In this document: positions 7,021 to 26,550 of the stretch, one piece after another
Layout of the letters: each line of letters starts with the position of its first letter
Numbering within the stretch: position 1 is the stretch's first letter
Virus record (IMG/VR): IMGVR_UViG_3300020703_000090
Location: 1-28,505 of that record
Source: a virus
Direction: 5' to 3' (one strand)
Length of the DNA: 28,505 nt
Notes under the pieces: generated by a model
Database searches by the model: none
What the model was told of the DNA's origin: nothing
What the model saw: only the letters and a program-made list of their open reading frames with translations
Position numbers and translations under genes: made by a program

Positions 7021-8160
7021 TTATTTGCGAAGCAGACAGGCCATATTCGGATCCAGGCACTTCACGCCATAGAGCACATCGAGCGCCACCTTGACTGCAG
7101 AGGTATCGGGCGCATACCAGATACGGGAGCGCATGGCAAGCTTGCTTACCGGGTCAGATACCGTTGCAACCCTTGCATTGCCCAGCTGTTCGCCGATATC
7201 GGAGAGCGGAGCCATGGCCAGCGCAAAGGCGTTGTGGTGGAAGGCAATGTTGTTGGTGAAGTTCATGAAACTCATGCTCACCACAGCGTTGTCAGCCACT
7301 GCCTGGGCAAGCGGCGGGTATATCTGCACGCCGGAGAAGGCGTTTCCGGCAGCAGTCACCGCGGTTTCATTGACCACCGCATAGCGCTGACTGTCGCCTG
7401 CAATGCTGAAGGTGTCACCCATCAGCAGCGTGCCGGTCACTGTTGCGGCATCAAGGTTGATGAGCGAGCTGCCTTTCGCCTGAGCGCCATTGACTGCAAG
7501 CGTTGCAAGCGAGCAGGTGCCTTTCGTGTGCGTGCTCACATTCTGGTTGCCGAAAATTTCGAAGCCAAGCCAGTTGCCGATATGGCCGGTTTTCAGCACA
7601 TCCTGCGAGGCCTGTCCGGCAAGGTTGTTGCTGGCAAATACCTTCTGGAATCCTCCCCTCAGCGTAGAACCGACTTCAAGATGCAGCGAGCCGTCATCCA
7701 TTGCCACCTTGTTGTCGAACATCACCTGGCTGAGGTTGGTCAGATCGTCAATCGAGGTTGTCGCCTGGGCATCCACATACCATGGCACGTATGCAGCAAG
7801 CGAGTTCAGTTTCGTGTCGATATCCTTGGCAAGCGCGTAGACTGCAGGACGGATATGATCGGTGATGATCTGGTCGCCGGTAAAGGAGAGCTCCTTGTCA
7901 GTCAGCGAGAACTTCACCTCTTTCCACTGGTCAAGCTTCATCTCAACATAGCTGGTTTCGATGTTCTGGTCAGTCGAAGGGGCATCCTGAGCGGTGAAAA
8001 TGCCAGGCTTCTTGATTTCAATCGTACTTCCTTTCGCCTTCGAATCCTTGTCATAGCCACGATGCACCCTTCCGGACATACCGAGAGAGGATTCAAGTGC
8101 AATCAGCCCCTCGTTTGCATAAAAGAGAGGATCATAAATTCCCAATACATTGGTCGGCAT
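7021..8160 (-). CDS. Phage major capsid protein (P22 coat-like)
   Basis: A 379-residue coat protein resembling the P22 coat family (HK97 fold with an inserted domain). Support comes from the N-terminal region with the sequence TSYVEMKLDQWKEVKFSLTDKEL, the helix with DHIRPAVYALAKDIDTKLN (spine helix position), and the late-coat motif NNIAFHHNAFALAMAPL at about residues 303-319, which I recall as characteristic of P22-like coats. A Gly/Thr-rich beta region at about 215-290 may be the inserted domain. It follows the scaffold-like gene by 31 nt, the usual pairing. The C-terminal 16 residues contain two cysteines (VKCLDPNMACLLRK), a slightly unusual ending. Confidence 0.82.
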   Translation of the reverse strand: MPTNVLGIYDPLFYANEGLIALESSLGMSGRVHRGYDKDSKAKGSTIEIKKPGIFTAQDAPSTDQNIETSYVEMKLDQWKEVKFSLTDKELSFTGDQIITDHIRPAVYALAKDIDTKLNSLAAYVPWYVDAQATTSIDDLTNLSQVMFDNKVAMDDGSLHLEVGSTLRGGFQKVFASNNLAGQASQDVLKTGHIGNWLGFEIFGNQNVSTHTKGTCSLATLAVNGAQAKGSSLINLDAATVTGTLLMGDTFSIAGDSQRYAVVNETAVTAAGNAFSGVQIYPPLAQAVADNAVVSMSFMNFTNNIAFHHNAFALAMAPLSDIGEQLGNARVATVSDPVSKLAMRSRIWYAPDTSAVKVALDVLYGVKCLDPNMACLLRK

Positions 8161-9762: not shown

Positions 9763-10257
9763 ATGGTAAATAAAAAAATAGAAATTATTTTTTCTGAACC
9801 TAAATTTCTGAGCGATATTAAAAATATTGACTCATTATTATATAAAAAGCGAAGGAAATCAAAAAATAATAGTCGTAGCGATAATAAAGCAATTTTAATT
9901 AAACGCTCATATAAGCAAAATAAAAAAACTACGGGTGATTGGGTACCACCACCATCACTTTTACCGCCACTAATACCTTGTGTTGTAATAAATAAGCAAA
10001 ATAAAAGTCAGAGCCGAAGGAGGTCAAAAAATAATAGTAGTAGAGTAAATAAAGCAATTTTAACTAAACGCTCATATAAGCACATTAATAAAACTATGGG
10101 TGGTTGGGTACCACCACCATCACCTTTACCACCACCACCATCACCTTGTATTGTAATAAATGAGCAAAATAATAGTCAGAGTCGAAGGAGGTCAAAATAT
10201 AAACGCTTATATAAGCACAATAAAAAAACTAGGGGTGATTGGGTACCACCGCTATAA
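9763..10257 (+). CDS. Basic, proline-rich tandem-repeat protein
   Basis: A 164-residue protein. After a ~28-residue unique N terminus (MVNKKIEIIFSEPKFLSDIK), it is made of a ~55-residue unit: a basic, Asn/Ser-rich part (RRRSKNNS, NKAILTKRSYK), then a WVPPPSPLPPPPSPC proline tract, then VINEQNNSQS. Two full copies and a shortened third are translated; a fourth, decayed copy follows the stop. There is no membrane segment or signal peptide; the protein should be highly basic and mostly disordered. The pairing with a membrane protein 3 nt upstream suggests a common function. Repeat growth by slippage is likely, and it could also be a degenerate product. I do not recognise a family. Confidence 0.55.
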   Translation: MVNKKIEIIFSEPKFLSDIKNIDSLLYKKRRKSKNNSRSDNKAILIKRSYKQNKKTTGDWVPPPSLLPPLIPCVVINKQNKSQSRRRSKNNSSRVNKAILTKRSYKHINKTMGGWVPPPSPLPPPPSPCIVINEQNNSQSRRRSKYKRLYKHNKKTRGDWVPPL

Positions 10258-10402: not shown

Positions 10403-10852
10403 TCAGCACCCGCGCATCATCCGCAGCAGTTTGCACTCTTTTGCTCTTGCAGCAGGCAGCAAGGCTTGCGTGCGCTCCTGAATCAGCCGCCGCTCGAATT
10501 GCGCCAGGAGTGGCAAAGATGTTAAAGATCATTTCACCCGAAGCCGTTGTCGTATCAATGCCGCCATAATTAAGTGAGCGAAACCCGACTCCACTGCTTT
10601 TCAGCTGCTCAACAATATCGAGTTCCGCAGCGATCTGCCAAGCCGGTCAAGCCGCCAGACAATCAGGGTATCCCCATCTTTAAGCTCTTTCAGGCAAGCG
10701 TTCAAGCCAGGTCGCTCAGTCTTCGAGCCGCTTGCCTGGTCCGTGTAAATAAGCTGCTTTTTGCAGCCGGCCTGTTTGAGTGCATCAAGCTGCAGGTTCA
10801 GTTCTTGACCTGAAGTTGATACCCGAGCATAACCGATCAGTCGTCCTTCCAT
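10403..10852 (-). pseudogene. Serine recombinase (resolvase/invertase family), frameshifted
   Basis: The N-terminal catalytic part is intact for about 75 residues: [21 protein letters not shown], with the nucleophile at S12, then [15 protein letters not shown] and [11 protein letters not shown]. The frame is lost near 10619-10628, where one missing base after GRSLRN would restore [16 protein letters not shown] and IDTTTASGEMIFNIF. It is lost again near 10505-10513, where one extra base would, if removed, restore LAQFERRLIQERTQALL. The product would be non-functional. A C-terminal helix-turn-helix is not recognisable; the last restored frame stops at 10403. The gene is much more GC-rich than the repeat array on its left, so it probably marks the end of a decayed transposon or a separate insertion. 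Confidence 0.85.
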
Positions 10853-11142: not shown

Positions 11143-12240
11143 TTAGTCATTAACATATTCTTCCATGCAATTGTAAGCATGATAGTTGATATCTCCACCA
11201 CCTCTTGCACTTGTATATGCTTTGAACGACTTACGCATCTCGACAAGAAACGACGCTGGATTCTTCTCTCTCAGTTTCCTGACATCTTCTTTAGTGCTTA
11301 AAATATTGAACATGCCTCCAATAGCGAGCCAAGCCGCACCAAAAGGTAAAGCTTGATCTATAGGAATAGAAAGCAGTTTACTAAAGAACATTGGCGCTGG
11401 AAAAGCCGTCAAAGAGACTCCAAACCATCCCTTTACATTTATTATATCGGCACTTTTCTTATACTGTTCTTGAGCTTTAATAAGCTCTTTAACTTTATCC
11501 ATCAAGGTCTCGATTTTTATATCATATGATTCTAACTGAATAAGCTCAGTTCTAAGATCATGCATACATGAACGGAATTGTGAAATTTCTTCCCTTCTTT
11601 TTTCACGAAATTTAAGGATTTTTTCGGCCGGGATTTCAGAAATATTTAAGGGTACTAATTCGCTAACAATCAAACCGAATAGCCCGAAGCTCTCTGCATT
11701 TTCATCTGCAAACTTATCGTCTCCAATACACATAATAAACTCATCTACATCACCGTCTATGGAAAAGTAATTTGTTCCGGTCCAAGCACTCCAATCGCTG
11801 GTGATGAGGGATAACTTATTTTTTTTTGCTATCTCAGTTGCCATGTAGAGCATAAATTGAGATGCTATAGCAGTCGGAACATATATCCAATTGTTATCCG
11901 TTGGATATCCTGCTTCGAGGAACAACTCCCTAACACGTTCATCTATTTTATTGCTGTGTAGCTTCATAATCATTTCTTCACCATCTTCTCTGTACATAAG
12001 AGCAGCTGCATTCCAATCTTTCGAAAGAAAGTCTTCTGACGCTTTCTTTGAATAATTCGCTGGATCAATCATTCTTCCGATAGACCCTTCTTCCAGCAGA
12101 GGAGCTAAGTCTTCAGAATCATCTGGTATTACGTTGTCCGGCACTATGCGATAAATATTATCATAAAACAAAGCCATCGCCTTAATCCAAGATGAATTAT
12201 GTAGGCCAATATGAGGGTAATAAAGTGCGTTTGATTGCAT
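11143..12240 (-). CDS. DUF6236-like protein with coiled coil and hydrophobic region
   Basis: A 365-residue protein starting MQSNALYYPHIGLHNSSWIK; the ALYYPHI opening is the hallmark I recall for DUF6236. The first ~200 residues look like a soluble alpha/beta domain (YDNIYRIVPDNVIP, then ASQFMLYMATEIAKK). Residues about 207-265 form a charged, heptad-like coiled coil. Residues 271-314 are hydrophobic (GWFGVSLTAFPAPMFFSKLL, then AAWLAIGGMFNIL) and may insert as one or two membrane segments. It lies on the same strand as the BREX operon, 228 nt downstream of brxL, and is more AT-rich, so it probably has its own promoter. No enzymatic motif is visible. A defence accessory role is suggested by the location only. 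Confidence 0.7.
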   Translation of the reverse strand: MQSNALYYPHIGLHNSSWIKAMALFYDNIYRIVPDNVIPDDSEDLAPLLEEGSIGRMIDPANYSKKASEDFLSKDWNAAALMYREDGEEMIMKLHSNKIDERVRELFLEAGYPTDNNWIYVPTAIASQFMLYMATEIAKKNKLSLITSDWSAWTGTNYFSIDGDVDEFIMCIGDDKFADENAESFGLFGLIVSELVPLNISEIPAEKILKFREKRREEISQFRSCMHDLRTELIQLESYDIKIETLMDKVKELIKAQEQYKKSADIINVKGWFGVSLTAFPAPMFFSKLLSIPIDQALPFGAAWLAIGGMFNILSTKEDVRKLREKNPASFLVEMRKSFKAYTSARGGGDINYHAYNCMEEYVND

Positions 12241-12468: not shown

Positions 12469-14577
12469 CTATGCACGAAAAATATCAACCTTTGTTTCAA
12501 GGCACTTCCTCAAACTGAGGTCGTTGGCGCCCACCTCATACCAGCCACCTGGCTTTTGATAAAAATCGAGACCTCGCCCAATCTTTATGACCCAGCCGTT
12601 ATCGATTCTGATTTCACGATCATGCATCTTGACGTTAAGTTGAACATCAAGCTCAACATCCAATTCAAGCAGACTCTGCTTGAGTTCATCCAGCTTTTCT
12701 GAAATTTCAGCTAACGGTGTATTGTCGTCATATCCCGTGATGAGGGTGATCTTTTTTACCGTATTTGATTTCACGACAGTTTCGCAAAACCTTACGAAGT
12801 TCTGTATCTGATGCGGCAAGCGCATGTAGGGATCTTCGATAACGATAGCCTTTGCGCCAAGTAAATAGGTGCCAATAATTGTCTCATAACTGTAACCAGT
12901 ATCTCCATAAAGGATTGTAAAGTGCTGCTCACTAAGCTCCACCGGATTTGGGACAATCACGGCAGGAACAGGAGGTGCAATCGATGTCGTTTTCGGTAAA
13001 GGCTCTACCTCTACTACAATAAGAGCTGGTTGTTTGGCTGGTTTTGGGTCGATAACTGAACCAGACTGATCATCCGATTTACTTAATCGGCGTCGGACTG
13101 GTTGTTGTGTAGCGTTGGCATTCTTCGATTCCGGACAGTAAACAATTATTTCCTCACCATTATTCTTGAAAAAAGAGAGGTTAATAAGAGCGAACTCATC
13201 ATCCGGCTTTCGTTTATTCATCTGTTCCTTAACACGGCGCCGGCATTCTGTGGCATAAGCGACGTACTCTTCAAATTCATCATCCGTCGGTGTCCCTGAC
13301 GGGTGCAGGATTTTCAAAAAAGCACAAATTGTTTTCTTGATGCCCTTTTCGTCGCGTCCTTCGATTGATTTACCAAGACGGACACGTTTGTTAACTTCCT
13401 CGTACCTGTTCGTGTGTTTGAACTGGTAGTGAAATGCTTCAGCCAAATAATCTGTGATGAACCCATAGCTGTTCGTCAAAAAATCACTACTATTTTTGGG
13501 CATTTCCCAACCTGGGATATAGGCTGCTATTCGATCCAATATGGCAAGATCAAATTCACTGGGCAGCGGTAAAAAAAGATCATGCTCGGTTGAATTGACC
13601 ACCTGCTGCACCGATTCATTAAAATTTCCGACAAAACTGAGGCTTGCATCGGCAATGACTTCGACACCACGTGAAAAACGGCCGTTAGCCATAAAATCTT
13701 TCATGATCTGCATAGTATCAGGATCGCGTACCTTGATGCCTCCAACTTCATCGAAAGCGACGGTATCCCAAAAACCAACAAGCCCCACCTTCCTACGCTG
13801 ATTGTTGTAAAACAGAGTTGCCTTAGTTGCTTGACCACCTGAAACCAATGTTGCATAGGGAGAAAACTCGCTGAAAAAATAGGACTTACCTGTCCCACGT
13901 GGCCCAAGCTCTATGTAATTGTAATTAGGCTCTACCAGGGCTGCAAGCCGTGCAATGAAGTGCATCTTCACCCTTTGTGAAAGCTTTGAGGGTTCTAACC
14001 CAACGGAGCGGATAATAACATCAATCCATTCATCCCGAGTAAAATCAGCGCGGCCATTTGCGTAGCGCTCGAAATCAAAGCGCGACAACTGGATTGGGCG
14101 CATATCTTCTATATAAAACGCATAATCATCTTCCTCAATGTCATTGTGCGAAAGCGTCACTTCAGCCCAGATGCCCCCCTCAAGAAGGCGATCGTTATCG
14201 CGGTAAAACTTCTCGCCAATTGCAATGCGCTGCGAATTGAAATTTTCCAGTGAAGCCCAGTGACGCTTTTCTTTCTCAACGTATCGGACATGAACTTTGT
14301 CGATAAAACGATGCTTCCCTTTGGTGGCAACCTTCGACTGTGCAGCATTTGCTTCATCTGGACGAACATAATTTTCCTGAAGCGTTGCCAGTACAGCCTC
14401 CATGCCCGCGTCCATCTCTGCAGGATCATCACTTGCACAAAATCGTGCAAGGAGAAACTCAAGTACAAACGTTGGAATGTTTGTGCCCTTTTTGATACGG
14501 TGAAGCAGATCTTTTCTTAACACCTTACCATCAAAGGCCGCAATCAGTTTATTGTCCAGCTCATTGATCTCATTCAT
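12469..14577 (-). CDS. brxL: BrxL, BREX AAA+ (Lon-related) protein with C-terminal MIT_C-like domain
   Basis: A 702-residue protein. The N-terminal ~130 residues match the DNA-contacting part of BrxL-type proteins (KVLRKDLLHRIKKGTNIPTF, then FIDKVHVRYVEKEKRHWASL). The AAA+ core has a Walker A at 225-232 (GPRGTGKS), a Walker B ending D276-E277 and the helical lid up to about 455. A proline-rich linker (about 485-545) joins a last domain, residues about 548-700, with HDREIRIDNGWVIKIGRGLD at 652-671 and VDIF near the end, matching the MIT C-terminal domain of eukaryotic MITD1. A Lon-type Ser-Lys protease domain is not seen. From the family, BrxL is a DNA-binding AAA+ ring that restricts phage and is dispensable for methylation. 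The ATG overlaps the pglZ stop (ATGA). Confidence 0.9.
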   Translation of the reverse strand: MNEINELDNKLIAAFDGKVLRKDLLHRIKKGTNIPTFVLEFLLARFCASDDPAEMDAGMEAVLATLQENYVRPDEANAAQSKVATKGKHRFIDKVHVRYVEKEKRHWASLENFNSQRIAIGEKFYRDNDRLLEGGIWAEVTLSHNDIEEDDYAFYIEDMRPIQLSRFDFERYANGRADFTRDEWIDVIIRSVGLEPSKLSQRVKMHFIARLAALVEPNYNYIELGPRGTGKSYFFSEFSPYATLVSGGQATKATLFYNNQRRKVGLVGFWDTVAFDEVGGIKVRDPDTMQIMKDFMANGRFSRGVEVIADASLSFVGNFNESVQQVVNSTEHDLFLPLPSEFDLAILDRIAAYIPGWEMPKNSSDFLTNSYGFITDYLAEAFHYQFKHTNRYEEVNKRVRLGKSIEGRDEKGIKKTICAFLKILHPSGTPTDDEFEEYVAYATECRRRVKEQMNKRKPDDEFALINLSFFKNNGEEIIVYCPESKNANATQQPVRRRLSKSDDQSGSVIDPKPAKQPALIVVEVEPLPKTTSIAPPVPAVIVPNPVELSEQHFTILYGDTGYSYETIIGTYLLGAKAIVIEDPYMRLPHQIQNFVRFCETVVKSNTVKKITLITGYDDNTPLAEISEKLDELKQSLLELDVELDVQLNVKMHDREIRIDNGWVIKIGRGLDFYQKPGGWYEVGANDLSLRKCLETKVDIFRA

Positions 14578-17114
14578 ACTGTATAATCCGTTTCCAGGTT
14601 AATACAACCATAACTTGCCAGTGTTGTAGGATTAAGTACCTTAACCGTAAACTTGCCCTCAAAATCCGGATCCATTCTTAGTGCGATTTGCTTCCGCTGA
14701 CCATGGACCAACATCACTGTGCGTGTTGCAGGATTCACTTCACCACAAGGTCGGGGTTCCCCGACGACATTCCCCTTGCTATCCTGAGCCTCAATCAACA
14801 CCTCAATACCAGGAACTTCAAATAAGTTCAAGGTATTGAGGCCGCCAGAAGTTAATTCCACATCAATAACAGGAATTCTTGTTGTGATACGCTTTGCCCC
14901 ATTCTTATAAAAAAGTTCAACATTTAGCTTTCGAACCTCTGCATGAACCACTGTATCAAGCCTCGCCACCAATACGGGCACCACTGCTTCAGCGAGTGAC
15001 GCTCCTCCATGAAAGTACAAATGACCTGATCGGTAAGGTGCCATGCTGCGAGGGAGTGCTACCTGTGCAAAATCCCCTCGTATACCAACTTTTTCTGCAC
15101 TAATGACGATACTATGGCTGTCTCCAGTACCACTTCCGAGCATCATGCGATCATGCGCATTGACTGGCCAGTTACCTTGCGGCTTAACACACACATCACC
15201 CGCTTCTGCATGAGCGTTAAGAAAAAAACCATGGTCAGTCACAATCACAGCTTCCTTGAATTTCATACTACTCAACTTGTGAAGAGCCCTACGAATCAGT
15301 TTGAGCGTACCGGGGATAAGGCCTATGGTTGTTTCTGGATTACTCTCCAGTTGGCTGTCGATTTCTGTTGAACGCAAAACCAAAAGATCGATAGTTTCAG
15401 CAATTTTTTGCTTACCACGCACAAAATCATTCAGCGCCATCGACTCAAAACGGTCACCGAGGTGCTTTTTCAAAACCTCCATCCGTTGATTAACATTGTT
15501 CACTGGCATACCGGCCAACTTCGGAACCAGGGAATTGTCTACCAATGAAAAGGTTAAATTATGACTCGCTCCAGGCAAGAGGCTTGCCATCCCTACCGGG
15601 GTGATGGTAGGCAATTGAGCATAGGCAGCGTGCAATTCCACAGGACCATCTTCGGCAAGTAGTTTTTCGAGTGCAACACCCAGCTCGTACCGTAACGCAT
15701 CAACCATCAGGTAAGCGACCTTACCTCCACGTTCCTTGAGCCGACTTGCAACCAAACTATCAAACACATCGGCATTAGCCATGCGTCCGGTCGGTGGCCA
15801 ACCTGAACTCTCTATATGTTTTATAAAAACACCCTGTACTTTTTCTGCAAGTCGACGATAACGGCCTCGGGCCTGATTAATAACTTCTTGCATGAAGTCA
15901 TGTTGTTCAGGAAAATCACCAACAGCTTGTTCGAACTCCCTTTGAAGACGGTCTACCTCCCGTAAACTTCCAAGATAAAAGTCAAGCAGATCAGCCTGTG
16001 AACGGGCATGATCTGGAAGTTGACGATCGTAATCATCACAAGCTTCCACTAAACTGAGCCCGGAACGAACCAACTCCCACTGCGCTACACTCTCTCCTTT
16101 GCCGAGCCAGACAGAACTCTTATAGCGAGTCAAAAGAGTTCGCGTCGTATCAGTATCATTGGATGTTATGCCTTTAATGGCGTTTCGCAAAAAGGTACGC
16201 TCTTCAAATGGAAAGGTATCCCTGACGCCCAAGTCGTCGATATCAGCGCACAGCTCCGCCATATTCAGTTCGGCTTCAATCGTCTCAGCCCGCTCAATAA
16301 ACGTAATACGCAACTTCTGGTCACTGCGTAATCTGTCACAAACGTCATCTATAATTGGTCGTGCTTCTATCGGGGCATGAGGCACTCCCTTCAGCGGGTT
16401 AGGCAATGCTCCCGGTAGATCAAAAACAAATTCACTGAACAACACATAGCGCCAAAGCTCATCAGCAACCGTTGACCACGTTTTACCGCGTGTTTTCAAG
16501 TGCAAGGATAGAGTCTTCTGCAAAAAATCTCGGGCTTCTTGCACCCAACCTTCTTGAGCTTTCAGTGCCTCTATCTGGAGTGAGGTAGGCGCCATCAATG
16601 CCACAAGTATTTCTCGGCCCGACTCAACTTTCAATGTTGCACGCAGTTGCGGCCAACTCACACCACCACCAATAGCATCAATCACGGCAAACGAAGGCTC
16701 CATAGCCGTTCGAGCAAACAACTGCCGAATCTCCGTGGCGTGATCAGGCCTGGCACGTAAGCATAAGCTGAGGTATTCGTCACCATCATCTTGAGGAAAG
16801 AGAGCGCCACACCCTGCATAGAGTGCAAAAGGGTCTACCTGTTTCTGCTCATCCGTTTCTGAACGTTTAGCTGGCACATAGATCAATAATGCTTCGACTT
16901 GTGAATTCGACTGGCCAACATCCCTGAGTGCAAACAACGCGGCCTCCCGGCTTTCGATACTGCTTTCACCTGCATCAATGACGCAAACCTTTTCGCTGGC
17001 CAGGTCGAAGCATTGCTGGCGATAACGTTTTTCAGCGTCGTACACAACCAAACAGCCTGCCTGTTTCAAGCGCGGTCGCAGGACACTCTCTCGGATAAAT
17101 TCAGCAATGCTCAT
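14574..17114 (-). CDS. pglZ: PglZ, BREX alkaline-phosphatase-superfamily protein
   Basis: An 846-residue protein, close to the usual length in type 1 systems. The N-terminal ~430 residues are helical with no obvious motif. The PglZ domain follows: metal-site D472 in YLMVDALRYELG, the likely nucleophile T505 in TITPVGMASLLPG, D627-H628 in VIVTDHGFF, and H702 in YFHGGASLAEAVVPVLV. All metal-binding positions expected for the superfamily are present, so the enzyme should be active as a nuclease or phosphatase. A beta-rich C-terminal domain occupies about 715-846. The ATG overlaps the pglX stop by 4 nt, and the stop overlaps the brxL start by 4 nt, so translation is coupled on both sides. In known systems PglZ is needed for both methylation and phage exclusion. 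Confidence 0.94.
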   Translation of the reverse strand: MSIAEFIRESVLRPRLKQAGCLVVYDAEKRYRQQCFDLASEKVCVIDAGESSIESREAALFALRDVGQSNSQVEALLIYVPAKRSETDEQKQVDPFALYAGCGALFPQDDGDEYLSLCLRARPDHATEIRQLFARTAMEPSFAVIDAIGGGVSWPQLRATLKVESGREILVALMAPTSLQIEALKAQEGWVQEARDFLQKTLSLHLKTRGKTWSTVADELWRYVLFSEFVFDLPGALPNPLKGVPHAPIEARPIIDDVCDRLRSDQKLRITFIERAETIEAELNMAELCADIDDLGVRDTFPFEERTFLRNAIKGITSNDTDTTRTLLTRYKSSVWLGKGESVAQWELVRSGLSLVEACDDYDRQLPDHARSQADLLDFYLGSLREVDRLQREFEQAVGDFPEQHDFMQEVINQARGRYRRLAEKVQGVFIKHIESSGWPPTGRMANADVFDSLVASRLKERGGKVAYLMVDALRYELGVALEKLLAEDGPVELHAAYAQLPTITPVGMASLLPGASHNLTFSLVDNSLVPKLAGMPVNNVNQRMEVLKKHLGDRFESMALNDFVRGKQKIAETIDLLVLRSTEIDSQLESNPETTIGLIPGTLKLIRRALHKLSSMKFKEAVIVTDHGFFLNAHAEAGDVCVKPQGNWPVNAHDRMMLGSGTGDSHSIVISAEKVGIRGDFAQVALPRSMAPYRSGHLYFHGGASLAEAVVPVLVARLDTVVHAEVRKLNVELFYKNGAKRITTRIPVIDVELTSGGLNTLNLFEVPGIEVLIEAQDSKGNVVGEPRPCGEVNPATRTVMLVHGQRKQIALRMDPDFEGKFTVKVLNPTTLASYGCINLETDYTV

Positions 17115-20100
17115 TTATCTACTCCAGCATTTTTTTTATTGCGCACTTTTTTCACTTTACCCACAGGTTCGATATAAAGTTCTTCCAAACCATGAGCTAT
17201 GGCAAGGGATTTGTCGGTCTTGCATTTCAGGCGCACGCGTTCCGGCCAGTAGTTTATTGCCAAATGAGCCCAGTCGTAATCACCCTTTTCCAACTTTTCC
17301 CAGGTCTCTTTCAGTACCTTCTGCCAGGGCTTGTGCCTAAACAAAGGCCATAGAGGTGCTGCACTAATTTGCACACCGTCATCAAGGTTGGGTTTGTAGG
17401 TGGGGGCGAGTTTGAGGAGTGTGTCACGCAGTTCAATCAACTCGAGTTCGAAGGCTTGCAATGATTCGAATTGCTTTTCGTCTTTGCTCGTGCGAGCAGA
17501 GCCTTTGTTGCGTAACGCCGTCACATCATCACCGACTTGCTTCAGCTTGGGCTCAACAAAGTCGTTGGTGGCAGTATATAGCGTCTGGCTAGTGAGGCTG
17601 GGGTAATAGACCCACAGCGTGTAAAGACCTGAGGTCGTACCAAATGGCCAGTAAATAGGTGCTTGCTTGCGACCTTTTGAATATTTGGCTAAGTGATCCG
17701 AAAAGAACCCAACGTGATTGCGCAAGTATTCGATTTCACTTCCTACGCCCAAAAGCGATAACATTTGAACCTCTACGCCTTCTGAATTGTGTCCAAAAAT
17801 ACTCGACATACAGCTCTGTATACGACTTTCAAGATCAACCTCGGAGAGAAAGGAAACTGTATTCTCGTGAGTCACCCTCGACATTGCTGGGGACTGGCTT
17901 GGAATTGGCAATCTCGGATCAAATGATGCTTCGACTGGCTGGCCACTAAACGTTGCATTAATACTCCATCGTAGAAAAGTAGCTCCAACCAGGTAGCTAA
18001 AAAGTTCCGCAGCGGCTTCTCTACCCCCTCCCACCTGTTGCAGAAAGCCATACTGTTCATTAAGCTCTCCGCCACCGAGATATTTGTCAAGCTGATGCGA
18101 TATACAATCTCGATCTATTTTGCTGATCCCGTATAGAGCTTCTACAGCGACAGCGAGATCGCGCTCTAATGCTTTAATCTGAAAACCTATCTGTTGAGTA
18201 AAAGCTAAGCGAACATCAAAATATTTTGCTCCCGCCTCAACAGCAGAAGCTAACAAGCCAGAAAAGTATCCAGACAACTCATTCAAATGCTCAATTTTCA
18301 ATCGCAGTTGAAATCCTGCCCTTGAGATATTTGCAACTGTAACATGAGTAGGCAAATTTGGTAATGGAGCTGGAATGGGTAACAGGTTCACGTACCCTGC
18401 ATGCTTATGCTGACCGCAATACAGATTTAGTATTACGGAAGTCAATGGCGCATTGAGGACACCAAGGTAGTACCAGATGTCGTCAAATGATTCTGGAAGT
18501 ACAAAAAGACCCTCAACGGTGAAAACATGGCCAACTGGAACTACGTGAGCATCCAAAACCTCCCCTCGTTTGCCGTATCCGATTCCCGGAAGATGCTGAT
18601 ATTCAGAATTGCTCCAACGTGTAGATGGGTGGTGTTTAAGGAATAGGCCATCTTCATTCCACCGAGCAATTTCCACTGAAGGCATTCCGAATCTTGAAAA
18701 GGGCCCACCATTATACATGCGCGTCCAACGACCATTTACATCAATTGAATGCGGGTCAACTTCCCACCAAAGCCTACCATACCAGTCCATTTTGATTGCA
18801 TGCCCCTGAAGGGCGCGCGCACCTGAAGCTTGCAATGGTGGAAGGGACGAAAAGAAATTAAGCACAAAGTTTGGTATGTCATATGCTATTGAAGCATGAG
18901 GGATTCTGTTGAATATTGCAGGGGCCAGCCAGCGAATGTCTACCTGGTGCCGGATTGCTCCAATAAGTCGGACATCCTTGTTGTTGTCATTGCGGCAGTC
19001 AATAAATCCCTGTGTTGAGTCAATATCTCCATCACAAGAAAAGACTGCGGCAGTGACCTCGACATTGGCGGCATCAAGAACGCCCCATCCTAAATCTGCG
19101 AGCGGTCCAATCGTCGCCTCCCCCAAGGCACAGCTTTGACGGAATGATTCATAGCTGGATTTAATCAGGATTGTTTTGTCGGTCACACAACCAATGCATG
19201 CCCCGCTGCGCAAAAGCATCTTCATTCTGACAATGAATGCTGCAGCAAGGTTCTTGCACCAATCAGGTGTTGCGTAATCCAGATAATCTACCGTGCTGGA
19301 AGATGTGTCCCCAAAAGGCGGATTCATCACCACGACATCAAATACCTCGCTGCATAGGTCAATAAGTCGCAATCCTTGCAAAGCGTCTTGCGCAAACAGG
19401 CGTCCTTGATATGTTGATTTTGCTGCGGTAGCAAAATCTGTTAAAGCTTCACGCAACCGAATTTCTGCTTTTTCCCATATACCCTTGTCTTGCGCAGTGA
19501 AGAGGTCTTCCTCTTTACCTCCTCCATAAACCTCACGAATTAACTTTGGCAACTCTCGCTCCACCTGGAGCAGCACACCCAATTCCGGCAATCCTTTCAA
19601 CAGTTGCAGCGTCTTTTCAAACAGCACGGCATCACGTTTATCCATAGATGCTGTGAGTTGCTGACGGAGTTCCAATTCAGCGGGAGGGGCTACAGCAGCA
19701 ACCACATGCCCCACACCAATCAATGGCCGATCTTTGGCTTTCACCCCTGTGTCGTGCCAGGCTCGCTGTGCCCGCAACCAAAGTGCCAAAGAGGCAATCT
19801 GCACGGCACGGGGATCGATATCCACCCCATAAATATTGTGTTCGATAATCAAACGGGGTACGTCACGGAGGTATTCACCCTCGTCAGTGTAGGTTAGGCT
19901 CAGAGGTTGAAAGCCTGCCTGTGGCGAAGTAGATAAATCCAATGCGCCTGGGCCATATTGCTGTTCCCAGATCCAAGCTTCTCGGTATATCTCGATAAAG
20001 AGGTCAAACGCATAAAGACCAAAGTGCATGGAACCACATGCAGGATCAAGTAATTTCAGCGTGCGTGGATCGCGAAGTTTGGTCCCTACCACGGGTGTTT

Positions 20101-20920
20101 CGTCAGGTTTCACAAGCAGATATTGGCAACGATCACGCAACGTCGTTTTTCCTCCCGTCGCGTTGAACCACAACCTGCCCAAGGTATTATCCACCAAAAA
20201 CTCTACGACATAGCGTGGGGTAAAAAACTGGTTCCGCACGGCCAATTCGCGGCTATTGCGAGGTGCCGGCGAGGCATCCCGCATAGATTTACGCTCTTCT
20301 TTTGAGTTGAAATATTGATAGATCCAGCCAATGGTTTCATCTTCACTCCATAGTGGCTCGATATCAGCACTGTTAATCAGGTTGAGCAATGGCAAAAGCG
20401 CCGACTCACGCGGAAACAAGCGACCTTGGGGTGAAAATCGGTAAAAGAGTCCCGGAAGCTCTTGAGCCAGTTCGTCGAAAACGCTGAATAGGTAGATGCG
20501 GTAAGCTTCGGCTGTTTCACCAAGGCCAGTGCCCGATAACCGGCCATACAACTGAAACCCCTTGGCCTGAAAGCCACTGCCAACCGACTCGACAAGGAGT
20601 CCGCGAGCTTCGGCCATCCGTAGAGCGGCTAAACGATTGAGGACGGTGAAGGCCTGTTCACGGACAATTCGATCAAGAGCTTGTTTTCCATCCATATCCC
20701 CACTTGCGCAGTAGTGCGATAAGGTGTCGCGCAAGATGCGGGCGGTTTCACGCTGTGCATCATTAAGATGCCGCAAGTTCTCAAGCCCAGTTATAGATCC
20801 TGAGATCGGGTCTAATCCATAGTCGTTCTGGAGTTGCCGGATAAACTCCTCTTGCAGCACTTTACGTGCATCGTTGACAAAACGTTGAAGTCGATTTCTT
20901 GTTGATTGATCAAAGGCCAT
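17111..20920 (-). CDS. pglX: PglX, BREX adenine-specific DNA methyltransferase
   Basis: A 1269-residue N6-adenine methyltransferase. The family's entry motif QFFTPRYVVEFLVDNTL is at about 231-247. The S-adenosylmethionine motif is D292-PACGS, followed by NIYGVDIDPRAVQIA at about 362-376, and the catalytic NPPF is at 533-536. The remaining ~700 residues hold the target-recognition and spacer regions, for example around 690-850 with many aromatic residues. In BREX it marks a non-palindromic host sequence on one strand, giving self/non-self discrimination. The frame is uninterrupted, with no phase-variable homopolymer noted. It is separated from brxC by 78 nt, the widest gap within the operon, and overlaps pglZ. 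Confidence 0.95.
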   Translation of the reverse strand: MAFDQSTRNRLQRFVNDARKVLQEEFIRQLQNDYGLDPISGSITGLENLRHLNDAQRETARILRDTLSHYCASGDMDGKQALDRIVREQAFTVLNRLAALRMAEARGLLVESVGSGFQAKGFQLYGRLSGTGLGETAEAYRIYLFSVFDELAQELPGLFYRFSPQGRLFPRESALLPLLNLINSADIEPLWSEDETIGWIYQYFNSKEERKSMRDASPAPRNSRELAVRNQFFTPRYVVEFLVDNTLGRLWFNATGGKTTLRDRCQYLLVKPDETPVVGTKLRDPRTLKLLDPACGSMHFGLYAFDLFIEIYREAWIWEQQYGPGALDLSTSPQAGFQPLSLTYTDEGEYLRDVPRLIIEHNIYGVDIDPRAVQIASLALWLRAQRAWHDTGVKAKDRPLIGVGHVVAAVAPPAELELRQQLTASMDKRDAVLFEKTLQLLKGLPELGVLLQVERELPKLIREVYGGGKEEDLFTAQDKGIWEKAEIRLREALTDFATAAKSTYQGRLFAQDALQGLRLIDLCSEVFDVVVMNPPFGDTSSSTVDYLDYATPDWCKNLAAAFIVRMKMLLRSGACIGCVTDKTILIKSSYESFRQSCALGEATIGPLADLGWGVLDAANVEVTAAVFSCDGDIDSTQGFIDCRNDNNKDVRLIGAIRHQVDIRWLAPAIFNRIPHASIAYDIPNFVLNFFSSLPPLQASGARALQGHAIKMDWYGRLWWEVDPHSIDVNGRWTRMYNGGPFSRFGMPSVEIARWNEDGLFLKHHPSTRWSNSEYQHLPGIGYGKRGEVLDAHVVPVGHVFTVEGLFVLPESFDDIWYYLGVLNAPLTSVILNLYCGQHKHAGYVNLLPIPAPLPNLPTHVTVANISRAGFQLRLKIEHLNELSGYFSGLLASAVEAGAKYFDVRLAFTQQIGFQIKALERDLAVAVEALYGISKIDRDCISHQLDKYLGGGELNEQYGFLQQVGGGREAAAELFSYLVGATFLRWSINATFSGQPVEASFDPRLPIPSQSPAMSRVTHENTVSFLSEVDLESRIQSCMSSIFGHNSEGVEVQMLSLLGVGSEIEYLRNHVGFFSDHLAKYSKGRKQAPIYWPFGTTSGLYTLWVYYPSLTSQTLYTATNDFVEPKLKQVGDDVTALRNKGSARTSKDEKQFESLQAFELELIELRDTLLKLAPTYKPNLDDGVQISAAPLWPLFRHKPWQKVLKETWEKLEKGDYDWAHLAINYWPERVRLKCKTDKSLAIAHGLEELYIEPVGKVKKVRNKKNAGVDK

Positions 20921-20998: not shown

Positions 20999-23900
20999 TC
21001 ATTGAGGCGCTTCAGTAATAAATGCAAAGGTAATCTCAAGCTCTGCATAGAGAGCGAACTCTGCCTTAATCTCGTTAAGTTGCTGGATGATTAAGTCGAT
21101 ATCAGAGACCGTCTGAATTTTTACTGGTACCGCGATGGACCTCGATAGCTTTGCCGCTTCTTTAGTGCTTTTCTTGGCACGCTCTTCATCCACTTTTTGA
21201 CGAAGACGCTCACGACCCTGACGCTGAATAGATCGCTTAAGCTCTTCCATAGTGCTATTGATATCGAAATCCCGGGCCAGTAGCTTCTTGAGTCCAGCCA
21301 AGTCTGGTTTGACTTCGAGCATCAAGTCATCTATCCGAGTTACAGCGATCCCTTGTTCTTCTTGAGTGAGTTCCTTCCATTCAGGAAGGCGCTGCAAGTC
21401 TTCAATGCAAGCCGTCAACCGTTGTGTTTGCTGGTTGGCTAATTTAGTGACCGCATCGGTTACAAGACTTTTTATACGTGTAAGCTGTGACTGAAAGTCG
21501 GCACTGTATGTATAAAAATCTTCTCGTCCTAAACGATCCACCAAAAGTGTCAACTCTTCGCTTGACTCATGGCGCAATTCACTAGGCACGCCAGTATCGG
21601 GCAGTACATCAATATCGCTACGATGAGCCTGGAGATTACGTAACGTATCGTCAAGCCCGTTGTCAAGCACCCGCTTCACGTCGTGGGCCCACTTGAGATT
21701 GTCGAAGATAGCGGAGGTTTCGGCCCCCAATCGCTGCGGCGCATCCGAAGCATCGGTAAACAAGAGATCGGCAATATCTTGGTTCAGGGTGCAAACTCGA
21801 TCACTGCCTGCCAACCCAAGGCCGCTGAGCTTCTCCGCAAGAGAGCCATAGTCATGCTGAAAACGCGGAAAATTCTTTAATGCTGCTTTACCGATATCCT
21901 GTTCAAGCGGAAATACGGTATCCCCGATTAACTCTGTAAGCCGCTCTGCTGCCCGGCTGAGCGTTTCTATTGAGGGGCGCTCATCGCGTAAGGCAACACC
22001 AATCGGCTTGAATGAATTATTGGTTTTCAGGGCATCAATTGCTTGCTGGCCAGCAACGGTGACCTCTCTTCCTGAAACTTTGAGTTTGATTTCACCTGCC
22101 ATCAACATGGCTGCGATAATGTAGCGTGTAGTGTCCGGCGACCAACCAAACGGATCATTACTGAAGTCATCTATAAGCCTTTTTCCATCAACAGTTCCGT
22201 GTTTGTCGATGTAATCACGAATACTGATCATCGCTTTATGATCAGTAGTAAAGGAAGCCCTTCCGGCAATCGTCTGCACCAGTCCGAGTGGATCGAGGCT
22301 GCTACCGATAGCAGCAGGGTTCGCTACTTTCAATAATTTTTCGGCCGTATCAGTGCCAGCTCGAACCGGGGCTTCAGCGTAGCGATCAAAAACCTGACCG
22401 GCAACATCCATGAGTAGCTTTTTATGCGCTTCAAGCAAATCACCATCCAAAGCGGCTATTGCTGTAGCCTGCCCTCTGAAAACAAAAGAGCCTGCCTGTA
22501 ACGTCTGCTTGATCTTGCTTTTTAGCTGACTGGCAAGTTTGGTCGCACGATCAACCTGACCTGTACAGTAATCCTTGACCTCTTGGTCTGGTTCATTGCG
22601 ATGAAGTTCCGCAATACGCTGGCAACGATAAATTTCATTTGCCATATCATCAAGTTCATTATTGCGCCTAGCCAGTAAACCAATGATATTACGATTTGAG
22701 CGACTGCGTGAGTCATCAAGCATACGATTTTTTGCTGCTTCGTAATCACCTGTATCGACAAATTCAACAATACTCTGTACTGGATTTTGATCCCCTGCCA
22801 AAGGAGTGATGGTGCTACCCGATTGCACTTTTAATCCAGTGGTAACAACCATCGTGGTGTGGAAATTGACGCGTGGCAACGGATCAAAAGATTCGCGTAG
22901 GGCATCATTAGATATACGCTTCAAATCTACGGTACGCAATGCTAAATCCCCACGCTCTTGTTCGATGTCGCGCAGTTTCTCACTGAGGAAAACAAGATTC
23001 CCCCCTTTCTCGCCAAGGGGCACATACACATCACCCAACAACTCATCAACAGCTTTGCGTACCGTTTCGAGCATTGAGGGTGCGGTGATGGAGGGGTGCA
23101 TCAGACTTGCAACATTCTGGAGTGAGACCGGTAAGTTTGAAAGTATCTGCAACACGGCGATAGACTTTGCTATGTCCTGATGGAGCGGCGAGTCGAAGAA
23201 GCGATTTTGAACTTTGCCAACAGCTTGATGGATAGAGGTAAATGCGCGTCGAATATCCTTTTCTAACTCATCGTACAGGGTAACCGTCGTAGCAAGCCAG
23301 CCTACAGGTTGATCCGCCATCGCTATAGAACCACCTTCACCCTTCAGTACATCCTGAACTACCTTGATTGCGGAACGCAACCCAATACCGCCAGTAGATT
23401 TTGCCAAGGCTCCCAGCAAATGCAACAAGATATCAAAATGGGCCGGGAGGAATGGGTAGAGGTTGATGAAGCTCGTTTTGCTAAAATCGGCGTCATAGTA
23501 CTTGGCGTCTTGCAATTTGGTGTTGTGCCTGAGTGCCTGACCATGAGCATCGAATAGCTTGCCAAGCTCTGCTTCTCCCTGGAGTGATTTGCCAAGCAAA
23601 CGGCGATAACAGATCTCTTTAATATCGCTCGATTCCAGGTCTATTTGAATCGGAAACCGATCTTTCAGTTTGTAGAGCTTGTCCGAGTTCAATGCCGCCC
23701 GCGGGTCATCTTCGGTGAGGGTCTGCTGTGCTGTGGAAATAATCCAGGCCTTGCCATCACCAATCCGTTTGAGGTTTTTAGCCAGACCGTCAAGATTAAG
23801 AATCAAATTATCACGGTCAGCAACATATTGGCCAACTTCATCAATGATAAAAATGATATGTTGCTTGCCACTTTTTTCGCGTACAATATCAATCATCTCC

Positions 23901-24631
23901 TGAACACGCTGGTTTTCGAACTGGAAAAAACCGTCCGTGCGGGAAGAAAATGACTTTGTGTCCGGGAAGAGTGCCGGGTACATTTCATGAGCGATGTTGG
24001 GAATCAGCCCGTCAATAACAAGAGGGTTATTCTGAACTCGATCCCATGTTGCTCCCGGCATGATAGTTGAAACACGCTCGTGTAGTTCAGCTGTTCGACC
24101 CTCTTTTTCGATCATGCGTTCGAAGGCGGCAACCTTAAGGTTTCTGGAGTATCCAGCCCACTGGAGCACCTTAAAGTAGAGTACCGTAGAGACATCTTCC
24201 ATCGTTGCCCCAGCAAGCATTTCACTTGCAAGATCAAGCATGACGACAGCCGCCGGGAATTGTTTTGCGACCGTATTGAGAAGCGCCTTTGTCTGCGGCT
24301 TATTGAGCCGATCATAGAGATAATTGATGAACGGAGTGCCGTTAATGGTACATTTATCATCAAAAGCCAAGCCGAGATACTTGGTAAATGAGCTTTTACC
24401 TGAACCGTAAAATCCTGATACCCAGACACCTACCTCATTCTCTCCACCCGTCTCCATCGCAAGTTGCATACGATCAAGTAACTTGCGAAACTGCTCTTCA
24501 ATACTTTCGGTAACCACGTATTCTGAGATCTCAGCCCTTAGTCTCTCTTCTTGAGATACGCTATAGGTGATAACCTTCTCTATATTTCGGTAGATGTCCT
24601 TACTTGGGTCGAAGAGTGATCGGATGGTCAT
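20999..24631 (-). CDS. brxC: BrxC, large BREX P-loop ATPase
   Basis: A 1210-residue protein that opens MTIRSLFDPSKDIYRNIEKV, the standard BrxC start. Walker A is at about 73-81 (GFYGSGKSS) and Walker B ends D264-E265 (IIFIIDEVGQY). The middle and C-terminal parts are helical, with several charged coiled-coil stretches toward the end (about residues 1080-1160, many Arg, Lys and Glu). BrxC is required for both methylation and defence in known systems and probably powers assembly or DNA scanning by the complex. It follows brxB by 20 nt. Its length is typical, and no lesion is seen. Confidence 0.95.
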   Translation of the reverse strand: MTIRSLFDPSKDIYRNIEKVITYSVSQEERLRAEISEYVVTESIEEQFRKLLDRMQLAMETGGENEVGVWVSGFYGSGKSSFTKYLGLAFDDKCTINGTPFINYLYDRLNKPQTKALLNTVAKQFPAAVVMLDLASEMLAGATMEDVSTVLYFKVLQWAGYSRNLKVAAFERMIEKEGRTAELHERVSTIMPGATWDRVQNNPLVIDGLIPNIAHEMYPALFPDTKSFSSRTDGFFQFENQRVQEMIDIVREKSGKQHIIFIIDEVGQYVADRDNLILNLDGLAKNLKRIGDGKAWIISTAQQTLTEDDPRAALNSDKLYKLKDRFPIQIDLESSDIKEICYRRLLGKSLQGEAELGKLFDAHGQALRHNTKLQDAKYYDADFSKTSFINLYPFLPAHFDILLHLLGALAKSTGGIGLRSAIKVVQDVLKGEGGSIAMADQPVGWLATTVTLYDELEKDIRRAFTSIHQAVGKVQNRFFDSPLHQDIAKSIAVLQILSNLPVSLQNVASLMHPSITAPSMLETVRKAVDELLGDVYVPLGEKGGNLVFLSEKLRDIEQERGDLALRTVDLKRISNDALRESFDPLPRVNFHTTMVVTTGLKVQSGSTITPLAGDQNPVQSIVEFVDTGDYEAAKNRMLDDSRSRSNRNIIGLLARRNNELDDMANEIYRCQRIAELHRNEPDQEVKDYCTGQVDRATKLASQLKSKIKQTLQAGSFVFRGQATAIAALDGDLLEAHKKLLMDVAGQVFDRYAEAPVRAGTDTAEKLLKVANPAAIGSSLDPLGLVQTIAGRASFTTDHKAMISIRDYIDKHGTVDGKRLIDDFSNDPFGWSPDTTRYIIAAMLMAGEIKLKVSGREVTVAGQQAIDALKTNNSFKPIGVALRDERPSIETLSRAAERLTELIGDTVFPLEQDIGKAALKNFPRFQHDYGSLAEKLSGLGLAGSDRVCTLNQDIADLLFTDASDAPQRLGAETSAIFDNLKWAHDVKRVLDNGLDDTLRNLQAHRSDIDVLPDTGVPSELRHESSEELTLLVDRLGREDFYTYSADFQSQLTRIKSLVTDAVTKLANQQTQRLTACIEDLQRLPEWKELTQEEQGIAVTRIDDLMLEVKPDLAGLKKLLARDFDINSTMEELKRSIQRQGRERLRQKVDEERAKKSTKEAAKLSRSIAVPVKIQTVSDIDLIIQQLNEIKAEFALYAELEITFAFITEAPQ

Positions 24632-24651: not shown

Positions 24652-25227
24652 TTAGCCGCCAACGTGGACGGAACGGTAATTGCCATCTTCAGGGTAAAAG
24701 CCAAGAAATTTTAAACGGGTCTTTCCTGTCCGAATGCCAGGGTAGAGAAAAATTGTCGACACATGGAACTGGCCATGAAGTTGGCTTTCAATCGCACCTA
24801 TGCGCATAAATGGGTGAAGTGCCTCAAGGTCAGTGACTAAAAGTAAAGCATTTTTCTGTCCTTCAAGCTGTTGCAGCGAATGTTCCAGACGCTTTAGTAA
24901 CCCATTATCCGAAGATAAAATATCCGCCAATGCGTTGTTGGTTCGCGGCCAATCTAAGGGGGCTAGCTTGTCTTCCGTCACACAGAGCGACCAAAAGGGA
25001 TCTTCCTTAAGCAGAGTCCATATCTGTTCTGCAATGGAAAACGTGTGGACGTCCCAACCTTCCTGATGAAGCTTTGATAACCATGCTGGCGTCTGCCGTT
25101 TTACTTCAAGTATCTGATCAGGAGAGAATACGAGGTAGTAAATAGGCTCAAAACTCGCATGACCGAGTTCTCGCCCAGATCGAATGCGCTCGCGCAGTTC
25201 GTCAAAATCAGCTTTGAGAGAGGACAT
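24652..25227 (-). CDS. brxB: BrxB (DUF1788)
   Basis: A 191-residue protein matching DUF1788: FDELRERIRSGRELGHASFE at about 8-27, then YYLVFSPDQILEVKRQTPAW, VHTFSIAEQIW near 55-65, ALLLVTDLEALHPFMRIGAI near 128-147 and FLYPGIRTGKTRLKFLGFYP near 160-180. Its biochemical role is not established; it is needed for BREX function in model systems. The gene overlaps the end of brxA by 20 nt and precedes brxC by 20 nt, so it is tightly bound into the operon. Confidence 0.92.
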   Translation of the reverse strand: MSSLKADFDELRERIRSGRELGHASFEPIYYLVFSPDQILEVKRQTPAWLSKLHQEGWDVHTFSIAEQIWTLLKEDPFWSLCVTEDKLAPLDWPRTNNALADILSSDNGLLKRLEHSLQQLEGQKNALLLVTDLEALHPFMRIGAIESQLHGQFHVSTIFLYPGIRTGKTRLKFLGFYPEDGNYRSVHVGG

Positions 25228-25996
25228 CGCAGAGGGTCTCCATGTCTTGTAGTTTCCAACTAATCCTGATCACATCACCGGCTGCCTGAATAATGAGGCT
25301 GCCCTTCAAAGAGAGTTTTTTCATCTCGGCAAGGACATCTTCTCGCGCTAAACCGAATAACTCCCAATTTTCGTTCGTAAGCAGGGCATTATCACCAACC
25401 CCGCTAAAGTGGAGTTCATACGCGAGGTATGCTACTACAACCGATGAGATTCGAAACGGCAGAATGCTTCGACTTATACGTTGCCCACGCTCCAGTAGCC
25501 CGTAGTCAGCGCAACAACCAGTCAGATAAGCAGAGACATGCTGCACCGTGGATTCAGACCACCGCTTCACACTCTTCCCGTCGTCGATACCTCGCTCAAC
25601 AAATGCCCGAGCATCCTCATTGGTGATCTGCGTATAGCCACCTGCATACCGAGTCCAATAAACGTGACGTACGAAATCGCCAAGGATTGGGTTCGCTCGG
25701 CATGTAAAAACGAGCATGAGTTGGGTCAGGTCAGCAGAACAAATATTTGAAGCCAACAACTTAAGATGTGTGGCGGGGACTCCCTCTGCAACAAGGTAGC
25801 GAGGTGCGAAGCATTCAAAGACAATGTTTCGCAGCCGCCGTGCTGTGACTGCTGGAAATCGACCAGATTCTAATGCCACCTGATACAACTGAATTGACGT
25901 CATACCGAGTGACCACAAGTCAAGTAGTGTCTTGGTTTCATTGACGAGTCCAAGGCCTGCTCCCAATTTAGTTGTGTAGGGTTTGTTTTCTGACAC
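25208..25996 (-). CDS. brxA: BrxA (DUF1819)
   Basis: A 262-residue protein of the DUF1819 family, which in characterised examples is a small DNA-binding protein required for BREX. The N-terminal pattern YTTKLGAGLGLVNETKTLLDLW, then ALESGRFPAVTARRLRNIVFECFAPRYL, is typical. The middle region (FVRHVYWTRYAGG, about 110-122) and the end (SLIIQAAGDVIRISWK) are also family-like. It is somewhat longer than the ~200 residues usual for BrxA, mainly in the C-terminal part. It begins 2 nt after the stop of the brxE-like gene, which implies a shared transcript and coupled translation. Confidence 0.88.
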   Translation of the reverse strand: MSENKPYTTKLGAGLGLVNETKTLLDLWSLGMTSIQLYQVALESGRFPAVTARRLRNIVFECFAPRYLVAEGVPATHLKLLASNICSADLTQLMLVFTCRANPILGDFVRHVYWTRYAGGYTQITNEDARAFVERGIDDGKSVKRWSESTVQHVSAYLTGCCADYGLLERGQRISRSILPFRISSVVVAYLAYELHFSGVGDNALLTNENWELFGLAREDVLAEMKKLSLKGSLIIQAAGDVIRISWKLQDMETLCDVLSQS

Positions 25997-25998
25997 GA

Positions 25999-26550
25999 TT
26001 AATTTACTAAATATGGATACGTTCTAATGTCCTGCAAGAACGCTGACAAGTAAGTGCCTGCTATTACCGCCAAGGTATCATGAGACTTGATATTCTTAAT
26101 GTTGCCCAACGCTATTGGGCCCTCACCAGCAAGTATTTCAGTTGAGGGCATGCTGTTCAATGCGTCCAACGCTGCATCTTTGCTTTTGGTCACTTGACCA
26201 GTAAACTCTTCACCGACGGTGCTTTGCATAAGATTGTGAAGATCCTGCTCGATCTCTTCTGGCAACCGAAACAAGTGATAGCTGCCAACGCTTAAATGTT
26301 CATCATGCAAACGTCGGGCGGCTTCAAGGACACCGTGATATTGAGCTAACTGAGAAGTTTTCGTAAAAACCGGCTCAAGAAAAAGTCTGCTTGATGTTTC
26401 ATAAAAAGCTGTTGGCCACCAGGCAAAATGAGAGCGCTCTCCAAGAAAGCCGATCAAGAGCCTCATTCGCAGCAACGTTGGTAAATACGATGCAATCATT
26501 TCATTATTTGTTGAACTCCTTTTTAGGAAGACCCTTTCCTTTGACTGCAA
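25999..26550 (-). CDS. brxE: BrxE-like protein, first gene of the BREX operon
   Basis: A 183-residue helical protein. I recognise a BrxE pattern: LLRMRLLIGFLGERSHFAWWPT (about 26-47), FLEPVFTKTSQLAQYHGVLEAARRLHDE (about 56-83), then VGSYHLFRLPEEIEQDLHNLM. BrxE is a small protein of unknown activity described as the first gene of type 6 BREX. The longest frame starts with TTG at 26550 without a ribosome site. The in-frame ATG at 26499 (residue 18) begins MIASYLPTLLRMRLLIG and fits the family start; a GGAG site lies 16 nt before it, which is long. I therefore think 26499 is the likelier start. The name rests on recall of the motif and operon position. Confidence 0.65.
   Translation of the reverse strand: MQSKERVFLKRSSTNNEMIASYLPTLLRMRLLIGFLGERSHFAWWPTAFYETSSRLFLEPVFTKTSQLAQYHGVLEAARRLHDEHLSVGSYHLFRLPEEIEQDLHNLMQSTVGEEFTGQVTKSKDAALDALNSMPSTEILAGEGPIALGNIKNIKSHDTLAVIAGTYLSAFLQDIRTYPYLVN

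Follow-up and report, generated by a model that had tools for sequence, protein, structure and literature searches.

The BREX operon and its surroundings

The window, that is the whole 28,505-nt stretch analysed here (IMG/VR record IMGVR_UViG_3300020703_000090), carries on its minus strand a complete BREX operon in the order BrxE-family gene, brxA, brxB, brxC, pglX, pglZ and brxL (Table 1). Each BREX gene is one unbroken open frame, and neighbouring genes overlap or nearly adjoin. Beside the operon lie phage genes (1415-8160), among them those for the terminase large subunit (1415-2650) and a P22-like coat protein (7021-8160). A 365-aa DUF6236 protein is encoded directly downstream of brxL on the same strand (11143-12240). 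Also downstream of the operon is an apparently truncated, 83-aa piece of a serine recombinase (10601-10852; Resolvase domain, E 1e-24). A 165-bp tandem repeat (2.1 copies, 9850-10202) is found within a small ORF (9763-10257) that encodes proline-rich repeats.

Table 1. Genes of the BREX operon and parts of the BrxL protein, in window positions
Feature	Position	Strand	Size or evidence
BrxE-family protein	25999..26550	-	NF033447, E 1.5e-48
brxA	25208..25996	-	profile match, PADLOC
brxB	24652..25227	-	profile match, PADLOC
brxC ATPase	20999..24631	-	family match and PADLOC
pglX, BREX-1 adenine methyltransferase	17111..20920	-	protein family match
pglZ	14574..17114	-	PADLOC PDLC02561 over all 846 aa
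brxL	12469..14577	-	702 aa
BrxL_N (PF20442), BrxL residues 14-143	14149..14538	-	Pfam, E 4e-43
BrxL AAA+ ATPase (PF13337), BrxL residues 154-463	13189..14118	-	Pfam, E 3e-120
Proline-rich variable linker, BrxL residues 485-548 (64 aa)	12934..13125	-	17% Pro; low identity to relatives
MIT_C (PF16565) PLD-like domain, BrxL residues 561-701	12475..12897	-	Pfam, PDB sequence search, predicted fold and Foldseek
HxRx4D motif, H652-D659 (HDREIRID)	12601..12624	-	alignment of non-redundant tails

An MIT_C domain replaces the Lon-like domain of BrxL

The brxL product contains both BrxL_N and the BrxL ATPase, and its gene shares an operon with those for PglZ, PglX and BrxA, BrxB and BrxC. Acinetobacter BrxL (8emc/8emh) has the same N-terminal and ATPase regions (matching residues 5-474 of the window protein, E 4e-124), whereas its C-terminal domain is Lon-like and that of the window protein is MIT_C. 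Matches to Pfam, to NCBIfam and to the cryo-EM sequence 8emc all end around residues 463-485, that to 8emc at 474, and a Pfam search of BrxL returned no Lon_C domain (PF05362), while LonP-type BrxL proteins of the same phylum, used as controls, were positive. From these two observations we conclude that the Lon-like domain is absent, as the original prediction held; having neither PF05362 nor a match to the 8emc C-terminus, the protein falls outside the LonP subtype.

The same prediction had read an MIT_C domain from residues 652-671 (HDREIRIDNGWVIKIGRGLD) and from the LETKVDIF close to the C-terminus, both of which are present in the 702-aa translation. The profile search bore this out: PF16565 matches residues 561-701 with an E of 3e-50 in the whole protein and 1e-51 in the tail alone, at 170-175 bits against a cut-off of 25 bits and over profile positions 1-142 of 142. 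The predicted proline-rich linker is there as well, with 17% proline in residues 485-548 as against 4.6% across BrxL overall. Pfam found in the window BrxL no MIT domain, the N-terminal, ESCRT-III-binding domain of MITD1. The protein is a type-1 BREX BrxL in which an MIT_C domain of the PLD superfamily, borne on a flexible linker, replaces the catalytically dead Lon-like domain.

Kinship with MITD1, also claimed at the outset, was evident both in sequence and in structure. A PDB sequence search with the tail retrieved human MITD1 (4a5z/2ymb) at E 4e-36. The fold predicted for the tail alone, together with 27 relatives (pLDDT 84, pTM 0.79), is that of the PLD superfamily, and its top five Foldseek matches in the PDB are MITD1 chains (E 7e-17 to 5e-16, TM about 0.8, 44% identity), followed by human PLD3, PLD1, vaccinia F13, Streptomyces PLD and the NgoAVII R-protein. 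The 50 PDB matches listed for this model include no Lon structure, and further matches in a viral fold library were distant PLD-like ones only. The full-length prediction was poor (pLDDT 49).

The tail and the C-terminal domain of MITD1 have in common the fold and family, the motifs HDREIR-x-NNGW or DNGW and IKIGRGLD, and 44-50% identity. Unlike the window protein, MITD1 acts in eukaryotic cytokinesis, has an MIT domain preceding the shared one and carries Asn at the position of D659. The NgoAVII R-protein (4rct) likewise combines a PLD fold with a role in restriction (Foldseek probability 1.00, TMq 0.55); however, it is only 11% identical and NgoAVII lacks an AAA+ ring.

The MIT_C match is far beyond chance: the Pfam E value, the PDB sequence match and the fold match rule out a chance or low-complexity hit. 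That the tail might instead be a diverged Lon domain has practically nothing to recommend it, given the full profile coverage at E 1e-51, the fold match and the clean Lon_C matches of same-phylum LonP-type BrxL, which the window tail does not give; we regard this reading as refuted. Designer pentatricopeptide proteins also appeared as candidate relatives in phmmer, weakly (E 1e-4 and worse) and with no stretch passing alone, and were discarded as composition effects.

Conservation of the HxRx4D motif and of the tail

The PLD signature is HxKx4D. In the tail the corresponding residues are H652-D-R654-E-I-R-I-D659, that is HxRx4D, the HKD signature with Arg in the place of Lys. The PLD catalytic residues looked for in the original prediction are thus there in part: the His and Asp positions are occupied, whereas the Lys is replaced. 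The tail therefore lacks the canonical HxKx4D, which does not in itself exclude activity. In PLD enzymes the Lys-to-Arg mutants PLD2 K758R and PLD1 K898R are the usual inactive forms. At the corresponding three positions human MITD1 carries H, R and Asn.

Of 55 non-redundant BrxL tails, with identities down to about 30%, 54 retain H652, all have R654 and 50 have D659, where the other five carry Asn. Eight further residues (D582, P583, R586, Q590, W662, G669, L670 and D671) are invariant, which together with H652 and R654 points to a conserved pocket. Mean identity across 20 relatives is 88% in the N-terminal part, 85% in the ATPase and 76% in the tail, as against 30% in the linker (485-548). 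Compared with the closest tail (L002), that of the window has a dN of 0.013 and a dS of 0.205. The tail is under purifying selection and is maintained; the linker drifts.

Distribution of MIT_C tails

In a sample of 394 genomes of the window's phylum, MIT_C was present on 24 of the 45 near-complete BrxL ATPase matches. Twelve others were long frames without MIT_C (all five of those scanned have Lon_C), and nine were shorter frames of 477-577 aa, likewise without it; this split was counted by hand after pairing the MIT_C and ATPase searches by contig and position. The closest tail, at 97%, is L002, on a contig labelled Chlorobiaceae. Tails also occur on contigs labelled Pseudomonadota, Geobacteraceae and Actinomycetota, on 24 plasmids, where the genes are mostly annotated brxL, and in 17 matches on IMG/VR contigs. 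The "phages" collection gave no tail matches. These genome, contig and plasmid surveys rule out a tail unique to the window, and they equally set aside the concern that every BrxL has this C-terminus: the MIT_C tail is a widespread BrxL variant, though not on every BrxL. A tree of the BrxL core does not separate the LonP forms and the two groups bearing MIT_C from one another; BrxL may have acquired MIT_C once or more than once.

Some MIT_C domains were seen in other settings. In a 947-aa protein from a plasmid of Candidatus Thiodictyon syntrophicum (L127:5640-8483), a dynamin GTPase domain at the N-terminus (PF00350, E 3e-20) is followed by MIT_C at the C-terminus (E 3e-21), so that in a bacterium MIT_C is joined to a GTPase of the membrane-remodelling type. 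A genome of the family to which the window belongs encodes a protein that combines MIT_C with 11 Sel1 repeats (L087:790-3414), and a 349-aa protein from a Paenarthrobacter plasmid combines it with IF2_N (L134:1961-3010). On a Hymenobacter plasmid (L126:6439-8480), brxL is annotated in several short frames with MIT_C as a separate gene, and looks decayed.

The tail belongs to a published class

The suggestion that such a tail was new did not hold. Roughly half of the near-complete BrxL proteins sampled in the phylum carry it, and the PADLOC BrxL model PDLC02508 covers residues 5-701 of the window protein, tail included (951.6 bits), with no difference seen. A paper by Rakesh & Krishnan (NAR 2026, PMC12839542) describes an "HKD-endoDNase" with an HRD motif that replaces LonP in 1030 of 2913 type-1 BrxL-bearing taxa; the HRD form "likely preserves" activity, and an earlier report of a BrxL HKD tail is credited to Li et al. 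2025. As in the window, LonP there is replaced by a PLD-superfamily H-R-D domain in type-1 BREX with PglZ; unlike the present analysis, the paper does not use the name MIT_C. PF16565 figures among BREX domains in another paper (PMC12715929), which cites an earlier defence survey. The window tail is a member of the published BrxL HKD-endoDNase class, to which we assign it by common architecture and motif. Since the same K-to-R change is used to inactivate PLD1 and PLD2, the activity that has been suggested for the HRD form is to be taken as putative.

A possible DNA-directed role of the tail inside the BrxL ring

BrxL is required for restriction in several BREX systems, and single-motif PLD nucleases act as dimers. 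In Acinetobacter BrxL, the N-terminal and ATPase parts build rings, the C-terminal domains, Lon-like and without a protease motif, hold a pair of rings together tail to tail, and dsDNA lies in a chamber that is widest at the ring-ring equator (PMC10164562). By analogy with that ring on DNA, the window BrxL would assemble on unmodified phage DNA into a ring driven by ATP. Its MIT_C tails would pair across the equator, in place of paired Lon-like domains, and so unite two single HxRx4D motifs, as in single-motif PLD nucleases. The composite phosphodiester site formed in this way would be turned towards the DNA within the wide central chamber, where it would grip the backbone and possibly nick it. 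The long flexible linker would also permit other arrangements of the tails.

We think it probable that the tail's action is directed at DNA, by binding or cutting, inside the BrxL ring. Several lines of evidence argue for this: the MIT_C and fold matches, the latter including the nuclease PLD3, PLD1 and the NgoAVII R-protein, a restriction enzyme; the conserved pocket, purifying selection and retention of the tail while the linker drifts, in an intact BREX operon; the solved BrxL, in which the C-terminal domain joins rings around a chamber that holds dsDNA; and the assignment of the HRD-bearing BrxL tail as a nuclease by independent authors. The Asn at position 659 in five of the 55 tails speaks against it. 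That the tail cuts DNA is a more tentative proposal, for which we would allow somewhat less than an even chance, because Arg stands for Lys in all tails and K-to-R is the standard inactivation of PLD1/2. In either form, the tailed BrxL class offers a directly testable handle on how BrxL stops phage.

The doubt over catalysis is also what favours a purely structural part, in which the tail would be a non-catalytic assembly module, making the ring-ring contact in place of the dead Lon-like domain, and the HRD pocket a relic or structural only. Pairing of rings by a Lon-like domain without protease motif (PMC10164562) is a precedent; the inactivating effect of K-to-R, the D/N toggle at 659 and the existence of related short BrxL forms without any tail (L107, 477 aa) would fit as well. 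However, an invariant R, a nearly invariant H and many conserved polar residues at about 30% identity exceed what a dimer contact needs, and we consider this reading unlikely.

The tether to membrane or nucleic acid put forward in the original prediction fared differently in its two halves: a nucleic-acid role fits the context better, while membrane binding has no direct support here. In the membrane case the tail, like MITD1, would hold BREX restriction at the inner membrane, the site of phage DNA entry. The 44-50% identity to the MITD1 domain and the MIT_C of the bacterial dynamin-like protein (L127) are in keeping with this, as is the membrane binding by MITD1 that is reported in the title of Hadders 2012 as cited in PMC9477494. 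Yet BrxL forms a DNA-binding ring in Acinetobacter (PMC10164562), no gene of the BREX operon is annotated here as a membrane protein, dynamin is just one partner of MIT_C beside Sel1 and IF2_N, and PLD folds bind both kinds of phosphodiesters. Membrane tethering is less likely than the DNA-directed role and, taken by itself, quite improbable.

Relation of MITD1 to the BrxL tails

A literature search for MITD1 together with BrxL or BREX found no link among the papers listed; the kinship was examined here on a tree of tails. In that tree, whose root is not known and which holds one eukaryotic sequence (letters from the PDB alignment) and few non-BrxL bacterial MIT_C domains, human MITD1 and the window's BrxL tail class stand together against 19 other MIT_C rows, with support of 99/94 when all rows are included and of 100/99 once long or partial ones have been removed. 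The tree program warned that long branches meet at the MITD1 grouping. MITD1 comes out beside rather than inside the window-class tails at a support of 78/47, which does not settle its place.

A BREX BrxL tail of the window's class might be the ancestor of the PLD-like, membrane-binding domain in eukaryotic MITD1, an antiphage part having been taken over for cell division; on balance we hold this descent doubtful. The kinship may represent another bacterial defence part reused in eukaryotes. In pairwise comparison, MITD1 is mostly 43-50% identical to the window's tail class, as against 29-37% to other tails.
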